Virus record (IMG/VR): IMGVR_UViG_3300048686_000374
Location: 1 to 39,732 of that record
Reading direction: 5' to 3' (one strand)
Length of the DNA: 39,732 nt
Source: a virus
The notes beneath the pieces are model-generated. The model was not told the origin of the DNA, did no database searches, and saw only the letters and a list, made by a program, of their open reading frames with translations. The stretch's first letter is position 1. The number at the start of each line of letters is the position of its first letter. Both the position numbers and the translations under genes were made by a program. Below are positions 1,972 to 11,556 of the stretch, in pieces.

Positions 1972-1977
1972 ATTATA
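1972..1977 (-). promoter_or_regulatory. Candidate -10 box TATAAT upstream of 1934
   Basis: A perfect TATAAT on the minus strand overlaps the stop codon of the synthase gene and lies about 40 bases before the ATG at 1934. No good -35 hexamer lies 16-18 bases further up (ATTCTC at 17), so the promoter is tentative. Confidence 0.3.
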
Positions 1978-2758
1978 CATTAAGCAGCCAACGCGAGAAT
2001 GCATGCGAGCTGTCAATGTGTTTATCCATTAACAAATGCGCCTCGTATCTTTGAATACGCGGTGGCGCGTCTGCAATAGGTTGATGCGTTGACTTTTCAA
2101 TGATCTCTTTGAACATCTTCATTCTTGACTCGTAAACATGAAATGAGCCTACGGAGATGGCCAAAGTGCCAACTTCTGCATTGAGTAGGACAGCAATAAT
2201 CTCTTGCAAAAACGAGAAAGTTGGAAGATCATTAGCCATTCCCCATAGAACATCTTGGCTACGCATAATAGCTCTTGCATTAAGACGACCACGGCGTAGA
2301 CGAAACTCAATAGCAATCGTGCAAGGGACATCTTTAGCCTCACTATCCATATGGTCTACGTCAGTCCCATACATAGGTATGACCGCGCGGCGGCTCATGG
2401 GGTCTTTCTGCAAAATGTTGACGATATGTCGTACACCATATTTGCCAAACCAGTATGCGCCATAATTACTATTAAGCTTGCCGTTGACAACGATCTTGCC
2501 CCATTGGGCGGCATGCTCAGCAATGGAGGTATCGAGCGGGTCTGCCTTTATATACCAAGCCATCTCACGCTTGAGATAATTAAGATTAAAGTTGCGACCA
2601 ACAAAATTGTTAAAGCGAACGAAAGGATTAACAGTATAAGTAAAGTTCTCAATCTCAAGAGTACTCTCTCCACGTGGCTCAGATCGAGTTCCACGGTATT
2701 CAAGCGCCTTATAAATAAGGATGAGATCTTCTTCACGATGAATGAGTGGTATTTCCAT
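1973..2758 (-). CDS. Thymidylate synthase-family pyrimidine methylase/hydroxymethylase (possible dCMP hydroxymethylase)
   Basis: The product has 261 residues, starting at ATG 2758 with GAGAG just upstream. A longer frame to 2869 exists, but it only re-reads the upstream gene. The fold is thymidylate synthase: catalytic Cys146 in VPCTIAIEF, phosphate/base residues MRSQD (Arg166, Asp169), Gly173, and SFHVYE (His207, Tyr209). These fall at E. coli ThyA numbering. Position 177, normally the Asn that pairs with dUMP, is Asp (GMANDLP). In T4 dCMP hydroxymethylase the equivalent residue is Asp179, and Asn-to-Asp mutants of TS gain dCMP activity. The enzyme is therefore likely to act on dCMP, or at least not to be a standard TS, using methylene-tetrahydrofolate in the cytoplasm. 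It overlaps the kinase gene by 26 bases. Family is certain; substrate is inferred. Confidence 0.9.
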   Translation of the reverse strand: MEIPLIHREEDLILIYKALEYRGTRSEPRGESTLEIENFTYTVNPFVRFNNFVGRNFNLNYLKREMAWYIKADPLDTSIAEHAAQWGKIVVNGKLNSNYGAYWFGKYGVRHIVNILQKDPMSRRAVIPMYGTDVDHMDSEAKDVPCTIAIEFRLRRGRLNARAIMRSQDVLWGMANDLPTFSFLQEIIAVLLNAEVGTLAISVGSFHVYESRMKMFKEIIEKSTHQPIADAPPRIQRYEAHLLMDKHIDSSHAFSRWLLNV

Positions 2759-3677
2759 AGTCGCTCTCAGTAATGTGATACGGCAAATGCGGAAAGTGCT
2801 GCATATGATATAAAGGTGGTGGCAACTTATATACTTGCACACCTGCATTGGCTGCCCAACTATATGCATTATTGCCTAAAGCAAAAATGCGGCTTGGCTT
2901 AAGTTGGTTAATGAATTTTGCATCTGTTGGAGAGCCAAGATAGTTTTGCGTGTTGATCCAATAGAGGTCTTTCTCAGGCACGCCTTCATTTTCTAATGTT
3001 TGCGCTAGCATACGACTAGGGCCATCATCATCTAAGAAGTTAATGAATGGCACCACAGCTGCAGAGGCTCGCATATTGGTGCGAGGCCCTTTATCGCATA
3101 GCATAAGAATATTGCCTTCCTTAAAGCAACCTCCTCCAGATGCTCGATTGGTAACTGACTTGGCCATAACTTTTTCTAATAAATCACTGACAGTGTCTTT
3201 TTCGTAATCATAGTGCACAATAGGTAAGCATGTATGCATAGGCAAAGTTTCGTATGCCTCATATACTTTGCCTAGTTGCTCAGTTGTGTCAAGGTACTCA
3301 ATATCTTTGCGCATCTTGAAAGTATCAACGCATAGTGCAAACTCTGGTTGACAATGTACAACCACGGCGCCACGAGTTAAGGCTACACGTTCTAACATAC
3401 GATGCCGTGGAGTATCAACACGAGTTACGCCATTGCGATATACCTCGCCGTAGATAGGCTCTGATAGCCAACTACGATCAAGTATGACGTGATCATCATA
3501 GGTTAGTGCCTGCGACATGGATCTAAAGTATGTCTTACACAAGTCTTCAGACGACATGCCGGTATAAGGGCCATGCTTTACGACATTGGTTAACTTTTCA
3601 TGGTTAAGCATTTGCCGCAACTTCTCAGATAGAGTGGTTTTGCCACCACCATCCGGCCCTTCAAGAATTATGATCAT
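2733..3677 (-). CDS. Deoxynucleoside monophosphate kinase-like P-loop protein fused to a uracil-DNA-glycosylase-like domain
   Basis: The product has 314 residues. ATG 3677 is chosen because it forms an ATGA overlap with the stop of the upstream gene and has AAGGG upstream; a GTG at 3686 is the alternative. Residues 1-175 are a thymidylate-kinase-type P-loop domain: Walker A GPDGGGKTT (7-15), the DRSW motif (67-70), and a lid-like Arg/Lys region around 120-125. Residues 188-300 form a second alpha/beta domain with the order expected of the UDG superfamily: LMLCDKG, a PF...G stretch, LYWINTQN, SRIFALGNNAY and a final HMQHFPHLPY. Catalytic residues of that domain cannot be assigned by eye. Fusion to a kinase and coupling to the TS homologue suggest phosphorylation of a modified dNMP, or editing of modified bases. 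Confidence 0.75.
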   Translation of the reverse strand: MIIILEGPDGGGKTTLSEKLRQMLNHEKLTNVVKHGPYTGMSSEDLCKTYFRSMSQALTYDDHVILDRSWLSEPIYGEVYRNGVTRVDTPRHRMLERVALTRGAVVVHCQPEFALCVDTFKMRKDIEYLDTTEQLGKVYEAYETLPMHTCLPIVHYDYEKDTVSDLLEKVMAKSVTNRASGGGCFKEGNILMLCDKGPRTNMRASAAVVPFINFLDDDGPSRMLAQTLENEGVPEKDLYWINTQNYLGSPTDAKFINQLKPSRIFALGNNAYSWAANAGVQVYKLPPPLYHMQHFPHLPYHITESDYGNTTHSS

Positions 3678-4564
3678 GCAAGCCACCCTTCTACTTTTTG
3701 CATCGTTTCATGTAAGGTCGCAACCTTTAGCTTATCTGCTTGCAACCATGCCAAGTATTCTCTGGCTTCGTCGCCCATCTTCTCAATTTCTTTTAGTGTG
3801 TACCCATACGCGGGGTGAATCATACCGGTTTCTTTGGGATCGCTACCGAGTATAGCTCCAGCATGTGCAGCATGTACGTATCTGACACGCCACCATCCGC
3901 ATCCGGCATGTTCATAGGTAGGACAAAGCACGCCTTTATAGGATCCATATTCCCAGACAATCTGAGACTCCAAAACCCTAGGTTGTCCAAGGGACTTTCC
4001 ACCCACGGCACGAATAGGCCAGGTAAGATTTTGTCGATTTGCCCACTCATGTGCGTCTTTAGATAATGATGCGTTATACCACTCAGTTTTTCTTTCTTGC
4101 CAACGTAGTCTATGTACTTTAGGCAAGTTGTACAAAGGCGATGGGTCCCAATGACGTAAGTCATCAACCGGCAGACCCATCAATTTAGTGTCACCCCATG
4201 GAAATAATGGTGCTAACCATGTGCGATTGGTAAGCAATTTGATGTCAATAAAGTTGCCCCATGTAGGCAACAGCTTTTGAAATGACCAATCATCAAGACA
4301 AAGCCAAGCATCTGGCCGTTGTTGCAATGCCCATATAGCGCCATTGACGTTAACTGCGTTATGGTCTACAGGGTATAGGTAGATGAAAACCTTCTGATAT
4401 TCTGAAAGATCCTCACCTGCCCCTACTGCTCGATGGTCAACATCATGCACCAGTCGCTCGAACGCGTTACGCATCAACTCAGGTATTGATACAAACTTTG
4501 TAGAGCTTGCACGTTGTGGATGATTTGTATGCGTCTCGGTGACGCCGGTTATGAGGATCTTCAT
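3674..4564 (-). CDS. Glycosyltransferase-like protein
   Basis: The product has 296 residues. ATG 4564 overlaps the upstream stop (TAATG) and has GGAAGA upstream. It opens with a Rossmann-like strand and turn (MKILITGVTETHTNHPQR), followed by KVFIYLYP (58-65) and AWLCLDDWSF (86-95). Near the C-terminus a conserved-looking block has a Cys/His/Trp/Arg cluster (CPTYEHAGCGWWRVRY, 214-229) and then an Ala-rich helix and Asp-Pro (HAAHAGAILGSDP). The layout resembles phage GT-B glycosyltransferases, where the second domain binds the sugar nucleotide, but no textbook signature such as DXD was found. It sits first in the three-gene unit with the kinase and the synthase homologue, so sugar transfer to a hydroxymethylated base is plausible. 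Family assignment is moderate to low. Confidence 0.5.
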   Translation of the reverse strand: MKILITGVTETHTNHPQRASSTKFVSIPELMRNAFERLVHDVDHRAVGAGEDLSEYQKVFIYLYPVDHNAVNVNGAIWALQQRPDAWLCLDDWSFQKLLPTWGNFIDIKLLTNRTWLAPLFPWGDTKLMGLPVDDLRHWDPSPLYNLPKVHRLRWQERKTEWYNASLSKDAHEWANRQNLTWPIRAVGGKSLGQPRVLESQIVWEYGSYKGVLCPTYEHAGCGWWRVRYVHAAHAGAILGSDPKETGMIHPAYGYTLKEIEKMGDEAREYLAWLQADKLKVATLHETMQKVEGWLA

Positions 4565-4773
4565 TAGTCTTCCAGTTCGATATACCCTGCAGCAACATCA
4601 TGCGCAATATCGCCAGCACGACCGCCTGCATCGATGTATTCTCCAACTGTCATACCATTTTCATATAATGCAAACCGATCTGCGGCAAGCGTATTATTGC
4701 GCTTAGGGTTTTCTTCAACCAGCACTTTAATTTTTGCTTGCTTATTGACACGGCGGCGCTTTACCTCTGACAT
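4564..4773 (-). CDS. Small conserved-looking phage protein, 69 aa
   Basis: The product has 69 residues. The start is set at ATG 4773 because AAGGAG lies nine bases upstream; an in-frame ATG at 4815 has no such site. The N-terminus is very basic (SEVKRRRVNKQAKIKV) and the C-terminus acidic (GDIAHDVAAGYIELED). The central FALYENGMTVGEY followed by AGGRAGDI has the look of a small helix-turn-helix-like or adaptor fold, but no family can be named. It is translationally coupled to the glycosyltransferase-like gene, which makes it a possible partner of the modification cassette. Confidence 0.65.
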   Translation of the reverse strand: MSEVKRRRVNKQAKIKVLVEENPKRNNTLAADRFALYENGMTVGEYIDAGGRAGDIAHDVAAGYIELED

Positions 4774-10247: not shown

Positions 10248-10612
10248 TACTTGCGACGAACGGAAAGTTCCCAGACGGAAGACATTTTCGTACCGGGAAT
10301 AAGATCTCCAGACTCCCACCGCTCACGGAAGACTTGAGAGGATAAACGCTTGTGAAGAAGTTCAAACTGATTTGTCTTTGCAACATGATCGTAGAAGGCG
10401 TTCCAATCCTCAATGGATGGATGATGCGTTTCACGCATGGTGCAGCTTGCTTTTTCCGACGCGGCTTGCGTAATTCCTGCAAGAGCCATTTGTTCCATAA
10501 TGTCGGCTTCAATTGCGGCCAACTTTTCATTAGCCTTTTTGATGTCCTCATTTAAGCTTTCCTTCAAAGCTTTGGTTTCGACATACGTATCGATTAGGTC
10601 AGAGATTTTCAT
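10247..10612 (-). CDS. Hypothetical phage protein with N-terminal coiled coil
   Basis: The product has 121 residues. ATG 10612 overlaps the upstream stop (ATGA), and AGGTGG is close upstream. Residues 10-45 form a charged helix with coiled-coil heptads (LKESLNEDIKKANEKLAAI). The second half contains THHPSIEDWNAFYDHV and LLHKRLSSQVFRERWESG, a pattern seen in phage proteins next to replication genes. No enzymatic motif is visible. Placed directly upstream of the SSB candidate, it may act with single-stranded DNA, but that is only a context argument. Confidence 0.7.
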   Translation of the reverse strand: MKISDLIDTYVETKALKESLNEDIKKANEKLAAIEADIMEQMALAGITQAASEKASCTMRETHHPSIEDWNAFYDHVAKTNQFELLHKRLSSQVFRERWESGDLIPGTKMSSVWELSVRRK

Positions 10613-11010
10613 TCGCCACCTTTGTATTGTGAGATGATGGCGATCATCTCGCCTTCAGGGCCAGTCCAGCCAATAGGTTTAACCACATCGTATTGACGAC
10701 CTCGAGTAGAGCGTATGAAATCATCTGCCGGTTGCTTTTTCATATTTGCCGCGTGTACCACTTCAAATAACGCATCAAAAGGTAGGCCCATTGCATGAGC
10801 ACAACCAAGAGCAACATACACAAGATCGACAATGGCATCAGCAGCATCAACCAAAGAGTTTTCTTCATAAGCTTTCATGTACTCAGAAATTTCCTCAAGG
10901 ATGAATCGCACAAAGTAAGATGATTCCTCGGGCGAAAGCAGATGCGGAAATGTGGATATGGGCAGCCCCATCTTTTTACGGAACTCACCAACTTGTTCAA
11001 AGGTTGTCAT
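10609..11010 (-). CDS. MazG-superfamily nucleotide pyrophosphohydrolase
   Basis: The product has 133 residues. The all-alpha NTP-PPase signature is clear: EEISEYMKA (Glu39, Glu40, Glu43) binds magnesium together with DAADAIVDLVYVALG (Asp58, Asp62). VVHAANMKK follows, as in phage MazG-like proteins. The family hydrolyses (d)NTPs to monophosphates and pyrophosphate. T4 dCTPase (gp56) belongs to the same superfamily, so in this phage a role in clearing an unmodified dNTP is possible alongside the modification cassette. A ppGpp or house-cleaning role is the alternative. Coupled by ATGA overlaps on both sides. Confidence 0.85.
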   Translation of the reverse strand: MTTFEQVGEFRKKMGLPISTFPHLLSPEESSYFVRFILEEISEYMKAYEENSLVDAADAIVDLVYVALGCAHAMGLPFDALFEVVHAANMKKQPADDFIRSTRGRQYDVVKPIGWTGPEGEMIAIISQYKGGE

Positions 11011-11534
11011 GCTGCCTCCAGGACAGTTGACTGGTGATCGTTGATGTAGTCACTGAGCCAGATTGGCATGGGGCGATCACCACGATGGTAAAGCATGGGC
11101 ATGGTTGCAGATTTAGAAGCGTAGTAACGACGGTAGGATTCGACGGCATCATTGGATTTGTATTGGTCAGGCATAGCTAGGGGTGGGTCGGACCATGTAG
11201 CAGGCATGTCATACATGGCAGGTGGAGCTTTGAGTAGCTCGGCAACAAGCACGTCGCGTGACTTATGGTTTTTGCCATAGCGTACAAAGAATTCGCGGCC
11301 AAGATAAGTGGCTAGTGTAACGACATAGTCATAATGCAAACGGGACTGGCGAGTCCAGATAGCACTGGGGTGGTTGACATGCGTGGATTTGTAGGATACT
11401 GCATGGCCGTTGCCATGAAGGTGATGAGCCGTGGCTAGGAGTTGGCAGGACTCGATAAGCATTTTGCCAACATGCTTGTCGCAATGCATAGCTGCTGCAA
11501 CAGGGGCTAGACGGTGGAGATAGAAGATATTCAT
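11007..11534 (-). CDS. Pyrimidine dimer DNA glycosylase-like protein (Pyr_excise-type)
   Basis: The product has 175 residues. ATG 11534 is chosen over a TTG five codons earlier that lies in the leader motif itself. The sequence NIFYLHRLAPVAAAMHCDKH, then KMLIESCQLLATAHHLHG and THVNHPSAIWTRQS, matches phage and viral proteins that score to the pyrimidine-dimer glycosylase family (T4 endonuclease V relatives). It keeps the His/Lys/Glu-rich core but is longer than T4 DenV (138 aa). The likely role is recognition of damaged or modified bases; activity is uncertain. It follows an intergenic gap with its own leader motif. Confidence 0.6.
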   Translation of the reverse strand: MNIFYLHRLAPVAAAMHCDKHVGKMLIESCQLLATAHHLHGNGHAVSYKSTHVNHPSAIWTRQSRLHYDYVVTLATYLGREFFVRYGKNHKSRDVLVAELLKAPPAMYDMPATWSDPPLAMPDQYKSNDAVESYRRYYASKSATMPMLYHRGDRPMPIWLSDYINDHQSTVLEAA

Positions 11535-11541
11535 ATGCCTA

Positions 11542-11556
11542 CCTTTCAATAATCAA
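11542..11556 (-). repeat. TTGAAAGG leader motif, copy before 11534
   Basis: Reads TTGATTATTGAAAGG on the minus strand, seven bases before the ATG at 11534. Just upstream are two GTCCACT direct repeats (about 11562-11577), a possible protein site. A TATATT further up might be a -10 element. Confidence 0.55.

Follow-up and report, generated by a model that had tools for sequence, protein, structure and literature searches.

A conserved phage gene cassette predicted to make glycosylated 5-hydroxymethylcytosine DNA, with a nucleotide kinase fused to a UDG-like domain

Four minus-strand genes at positions 1973-4773 of the virus record IMGVR_UViG_3300048686_000374 (39.7 kb; the whole stretch of 39,732 nucleotides is referred to here as the window) raise the question of whether they form a DNA modification pathway and, if so, which base is modified and by what means. 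The initial annotation of this DNA had seen in them a thymidylate synthase (TS)/hydroxymethylase homologue, a P-loop nucleotide kinase fused to a glycosylase-like domain, a glycosyltransferase (GT)-like protein and a 69-residue protein, and had likened the set to the one by which phage T4 makes glucosylated hydroxymethylcytosine. Our analysis points to the same logic carried out by different enzymes: with a probability that we put at roughly four in five, the cassette makes DNA containing glycosylated 5-hydroxymethylcytosine (hmC). The T4-like reading is supported by the active-site residues of the TS homologue, the fold of the GT, the homology of a MazG-type enzyme encoded elsewhere in the window to one of Stenotrophomonas phage AXL3, and the restriction resistance of AXL3 DNA.

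All four open reading frames were found where the annotation had placed them, and the three junctions it described are present in the sequence: the TAA stop of the 69-residue gene and the ATG start of the GT gene are joined as TAATG (4566-4562), the end of the GT gene overlaps the beginning of the kinase gene in ATGA (3677-3674), and the kinase and TS genes overlap by 26 bases (2733-2758). For the kinase gene (2733..3686) a GTG at 3686 is a possible alternative start; the ATG at 3677 is the more likely one, as it is common to many relatives and yields the ATGA overlap. Scans of IMG/VR returned more than 100 loci, and the counts given here use the 75 whose kinase genes are distinct. In all of these the GT, kinase-UDG (uracil-DNA glycosylase) and TS genes kept their order and strand, with the helicase next to the GT gene and the same throughout, and this constancy of GT, kinase-UDG and TS argues that the cassette is not a product of chance. 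The 69-residue gene was detected in 72 of the 75, mostly but not invariably, and the constant core is therefore GT-kinase-TS. Conservation of the cassette proteins among the relatives reaches down to ∼58-66% identity. The larger related contigs (n = 13) are mostly 51-60 kb in length, with one of 111 kb, and a search of a phage collection gave no near DNA match to the window.

To which base does the cassette point? The TS homologue (261 aa; 1973..2758, minus strand; PF00303, E 1.3e-19) has as its best PDB relatives the cytidylate hydroxymethylases MilA (7.6e-17) and T4 gp42 (2.6e-12), with all thymidylate synthases ranking lower. In the T4 dCMP hydroxymethylase, Asp179 determines the choice of cytosine, Asp145 together with Ser94 and Tyr96 serves hydroxylation, and Cys148 is the nucleophile (PMC6400193). 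Cytosine-using enzymes of this kind carry Asp and uracil-using ones Asn, with Arg/Ser found in those that are deoxy-specific (PMC5175136). In 29/29 members of the TS family we found the cytosine-specificity residue D177 (T4 D179) and the nucleophile C146 (T4 C148); the hydroxylation residues D143, S97 and Y99 (T4 D145, S94 and Y96, which serve the hydroxylation water); E65 (T4 E60) and the phosphate residues R123 and R124 (same numbers in T4); and S167 (T4 S169, deoxyribose preference), a Ser in the deoxy-specific enzymes. As a control, the enzyme of phage M6, which makes derivatives of 5-hydroxymethyluracil (hmU), has Asn at the position of T4 D179. Because the dCMP-type residues occur in 29/29 members, the predicted product is hydroxymethyl-dCMP (hm-dCMP) and the base cytosine rather than uracil; on this residue-level evidence the TS homologue should convert dCMP to hm-dCMP. 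The recognition of a TS/hydroxymethylase homologue thus held, and the choice between C and U, which the annotation had left undecided, is now drawn towards C by the T4 active-site residues.

The same data bear on two other explanations. The first is ordinary nucleotide supply, by a thymidylate synthase and a thymidylate kinase with unrelated neighbours, as the PHROGs and GenBank names for the two proteins would have it. This is extremely improbable: the TS-specific Asn is replaced by Asp and the hydroxylase residues are present in 29/29 members, and the protein scores 55 bits at most against the NCBIfam thymidylate synthase models, the cut-offs of which are at least 108. It was rejected on these residues and scores. 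The second is hypermodification of thymidine as in phages M6 and ViI, where hydroxymethyl-dUMP is made first and other enzymes, among them a 5-hmU DNA kinase, act later. The M6 core also consists of a TS homologue and a P-loop kinase, and the TS of Pseudoxanthomonas phage PW916, which carries a related kinase-UDG gene, is annotated as a deoxyuridylate hydroxymethyltransferase. Such a route is nevertheless very unlikely here, as the specificity position is Asp, not Asn, in all family members and in PW916 and AXL3, and AXL3 DNA is cut at A/T-only sites alone, the opposite of what modification of T would lead one to expect. In addition, M6 gp54, which we take to be the 5-hmU DNA kinase (reportedly so described by Lee et al. 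2018), is not detectably related to the kinase family of the window (profile E 0.11, 1.3 bits). The M6-type pathway was rejected on the Asp residue, the M6 Asn control and the unrelatedness of gp54.

Read from ATG 3677, the kinase gene encodes a two-domain protein, in which a TMP-kinase-type (d)NMP kinase is joined to a UDG-superfamily-like domain. The kinase domain (3147..3677, minus strand) matches PHROG 761 (thymidylate kinase) with E 6e-22, and its PDB fold matches are nearly all of the TMPK/dNK type, with VIA Z up to 14.8; it is predicted to be an hm-dCMP kinase, the analogue of T4 gp1. No relative of the kinase family was found in bacterial genomes. In a fold search with the full-length protein the matches were filled by the kinase domain, and a PDB sequence search with the UDG-like domain alone gave nothing useful. 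For this C-terminal domain (2787..3131, minus strand) the Pfam UDG model gave E 0.22 in the window protein, which does not reach the PF03167 gathering score, and 0.0099 at best among 37 family members. When compared as a profile with nine phage UDG domains it scored 49.8; 60 column shuffles reached 19.4 at most, and unrelated profiles 13. The catalytic motifs are not retained in the window family, motif 1 being CDKGP (for GEAPG) and motif 2 PPPLYH (for HP/HPS), and the base-recognition Asn, N245, is invariant there; of the other lineages, AXL3 has retained HPQ and phage G NPG/HPA. The proposed fusion of a P-loop kinase to a glycosylase-like domain is therefore upheld by the TMPK fold and the profile relatedness to UDG, with motifs that have degenerated in the window.

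The same architecture was found in AXL3 (AXL3_29), PW916 and ctUtU524, and a homologous one, reached via a viral fold library, in gp315 of Bacillus phage G (L159:16928-17923; PF03167 E 1.5e-12). Wherever the fusion occurs an Asp-type TS lies nearby, and this holds in three phage lineages (the window family, the AXL3-like phages and phage G). Phage G gp315 is annotated as a thymidylate kinase and also has a full UDG-superfamily domain, its NPG/HP motifs intact. In PW916 the kinase-UDG gene (L015:2319-3296) is unannotated in the record, and the adjoining TS bears its deoxyuridylate name despite a dCMP-type Asp. Family-A DNA polymerases of SPO1 and other phages (L152, L154, L158) are also fused to UDG-like domains, some of them without the recognition Asn. 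The initial annotation had not recognised the kinase-UDG layout as one already described; likewise, no description of the fusion or of its recurrence was found in the literature that we searched, which was mostly without subscription papers.

What could a degenerate UDG-like domain do in such a protein? Judging by its motifs, its most probable role is that of a module that binds a base or DNA and does not cleave. Brig3, a UDG-superfamily enzyme, acts on hmC in defence (PMC13160076), and the existence of such enzymes makes recognition of hmC by this fold plausible. Alternatively, the fused protein might act on DNA, the UDG-like domain flipping hmC or a neighbouring base and the kinase phosphorylating the hydroxymethyl group to give an activated hypermodification intermediate. 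The recurrence of the fusion in three lineages near dCMP-type hydroxymethylases, the retention in the window family of the recognition Asn with loss of the cleavage motifs, and the 5-hmU kinase route to hypermodification in M6-type phages (PMC11946847) all speak for this scenario. We nonetheless consider it unlikely, as the kinase domain is of the TMPK/dNK type and shows no relation to that of M6, the phage would need another enzyme to phosphorylate hm-dCMP, and a sugar transferase with the fold of T4 beta-glucosyltransferase (BGT) requires a free hydroxyl. Just as doubtful is the related idea that the kinase-UDG protein is a hypermodification enzyme of a new type and provides the cytosine counterpart of the phosphorylated-hmU route, in which a repurposed, non-cleaving UDG would present (hydroxymethyl)cytosine in DNA to the attached kinase for activation of the base, and the GT-B enzyme or, in AXL3, a methyltransferase would be alternative finishers.

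A T4-like pathway also calls for a dCTPase, a part for which a MazG-family enzyme had been suggested. The MazG-type nucleotide pyrophosphohydrolase of the window (10609..11010, minus strand; PF01503, E 7e-15) is 43% identical to AXL3_30, which in AXL3 is placed between a methyltransferase and the kinase-UDG gene, with kinase-UDG and TS being neighbours. The MazG gene is present in 13/13 large related contigs. These two observations support its membership of the pathway, and by homology it is a candidate for the dCTPase. The start of the gene is overlapped by another (11007-11549), which belongs to PHROG 624, 'DNA binding protein'. Of 37 restriction enzymes tried on AXL3 DNA only two cut it, TasI and Tru1I, both with A/T-only sites (PMC7504290), and all those with G/C in the site are reported to have failed; this is the pattern expected if C is replaced.

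Is a sugar then added to the hydroxymethylated base? The GT (296 aa; 3674..4564, minus strand) gave no convincing sequence match in Pfam or NCBIfam and no solved relative in the PDB; it matches PHROG 14998, a family of unknown function. Its AlphaFold2 model (pLDDT 87, pTM 0.85) has a GT-B fold, and among 350,542 PDB chains T4 BGT was the top match with both aligners (Foldseek E 4.2e-8; VIA Z 17.9, rmsd 3.7 over 280 aa), followed by SenB, tied within 1 Z, and closely by T4 alpha-glucosyltransferase (AGT; Z 15.9). A fold search had been proposed as the test of whether this protein belongs with glycosyl transfer; BGT came out closest, and no unrelated family stood on top. In a profile-sequence comparison the match to T4 BGT had E 0.007 and was limited to the first 82 columns, and the hhalign residue alignment of the two proteins is unreliable past residue 87. 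D92, R226 and R228 are invariant out to the distant homologues and, from their places in the fold, may correspond to Asp100 (catalytic) and Arg269 (UDP-binding) of BGT.

The genomic company of distant GT relatives is in line with this fold. An Asp-type TS is present in Aeromonas phage 25, Erwinia FBB1, Providencia PSTRCR_127, Gordonia Forza and ctIqW946; in the sixth genome, that of phage C48C1, a TS was not found and a Tet_JBP oxygenase gene (E 3e-17) overlaps the GT gene. Thus each of the six distant relatives examined is accompanied by a dCMP-type hydroxymethylase or, for C48C1, by a TET/JBP oxygenase, although three of the six phages are T4-like and probably share gp42 by descent, and so count as one lineage. 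Taken together with the structural model, these data make the GT a candidate DNA-hmC glycosyltransferase. In Aeromonas phage 25, FBB1 and C48C1 the GT gene has a UDP-galactopyranose mutase gene beside it; elsewhere among the isolates and the 13 large related contigs none was found. This suggests galactofuranose in those three phages. The DNA of Aeromonas phage 25 and FBB1, in which the GT relative is paired with the mutase (L144:4896-7077 and L146:4937-7062, respectively), may carry furanosyl-hmC. In C48C1, of the Kyanoviridae family, the TET/JBP oxygenase, BGT-like GT and mutase are three consecutive overlapping genes (L018:5586-9033), a candidate system for in-situ oxidation and galactofuranosylation.

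It could also be that the DNA contains hmC, or hmC modified further, and that the GT-B protein acts on a non-DNA target such as a virion or host surface glycan. GT-B folds are widespread, with SenB, PimA and TarM among the high structural matches, and the hydroxymethylase-kinase-MazG module of AXL3 works without this GT. We regard this as improbable in view of T4 BGT being the closest fold, with T4 AGT also high, of the translational coupling or direct adjacency of the GT gene to the kinase and hydroxymethylase genes in 75/75 relatives, and of the co-occurrence seen in all six distant ones.

In the T4-like pathway that we favour, the TS homologue would convert dCMP to 5-hydroxymethyl-dCMP and the kinase domain would phosphorylate it towards hm-dCTP, while the MazG enzyme would break down dCTP and so keep ordinary C out. 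The phage polymerase would incorporate hmC, the GT-B enzyme would move a sugar onto the hydroxymethyl group in DNA, and the glycosylated hmC would shield the DNA from restriction enzymes. As the weakest step, the UDG-like domain may couple hm-dCMP phosphorylation to DNA or to the replication machinery. Several points weigh against this scheme. Many unrelated GT-B enzymes reach Z 14-17 against the GT model, and no Pfam DNA-glucosyltransferase model matches the GT (E up to 10). In AXL3 a relative of the GT is not detectable, and the resistance of its DNA therefore speaks for the hydroxymethylase-kinase-MazG part and not for the sugar. UDP-galactopyranose mutase occurs in 0/13 large contigs related to the window, the MazG gene lies ∼6 kb away from the cassette, the pathway itself gives no explanation of the role of the UDG-like domain, and no nucleoside analysis was found for any family member.

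The first gene of the cassette (4564..4773, minus strand), coupled to the GT gene through TAATG, encodes the conserved 69-aa protein, which had zero matches in Pfam, PHROG and NCBIfam and shows the motif I..NPKR....RF.LY..GMT..Y...GG..D among relatives. Immediately downstream of the cassette are two further minus-strand genes (1212-1934 and 982-1215), the position of which is kept in most relatives and the sequence of which is fast evolving.

If correct, the prediction extends T4-style glycosyl-hmC beyond the T4-like phages to common, uncultured smaller ones (75 distinct copies), and gives PHROG 14998, so far uncharacterised, a candidate function as a DNA-hmC glycosyltransferase that would be useful for hmC labelling. 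The locus would represent a T4-like hmC-glycosylation pathway of new enzyme composition, in which the kinase-UDG fusion, kept in three phage lineages beside dCMP-type hydroxymethylases and unexplained in the literature searched, is the least explained part. With AXL3, PW916, phage G and Aeromonas phage 25 available as isolates, the prediction can be put to a direct test.

Compared with T4, where gp42 (dCMP hydroxymethylase), gp1 (dNMP kinase), gp56 (dCTPase) and the beta- and alpha-GTs act, the same four activities are predicted for the window; the hydroxymethylase active site is identical at every position checked and the GT has the BGT fold. In contrast to T4, the cassette is a compact, translationally coupled operon on contigs of ∼50-60 kb, the kinase carries a fused UDG-like domain, a MazG-type enzyme takes the dCTPase role and the GT lies outside the T4 BGT sequence family. 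AXL3 and PW916 have as neighbours a homologous kinase-UDG (31.7% and 35%, respectively), an Asp-type TS and a homologous MazG enzyme, and AXL3 DNA is restriction resistant; they differ in that a relative of the GT was not found, a SAM methyltransferase and a dCMP deaminase being present instead, the latter not found in contigs related to the window. The gp306-gp319 region of Bacillus phage G holds, within ∼15 kb, a kinase-UDG (gp315), an Asp-type TS (gp319), a dCMP deaminase and two homologues of AGT-family DNA glucosyltransferases. Here the transferases are AGT-type (PF11440) rather than BGT-like, the phage is a jumbo phage and the UDG motifs of gp315 are canonical. The pentose-hmC systems of RB69 and Thanatos likewise place a sugar on a cytosine derivative and have a T4-like hydroxymethylase; they differ in their phage-encoded pentose-nucleotide genes, none of which was identified in the window family.

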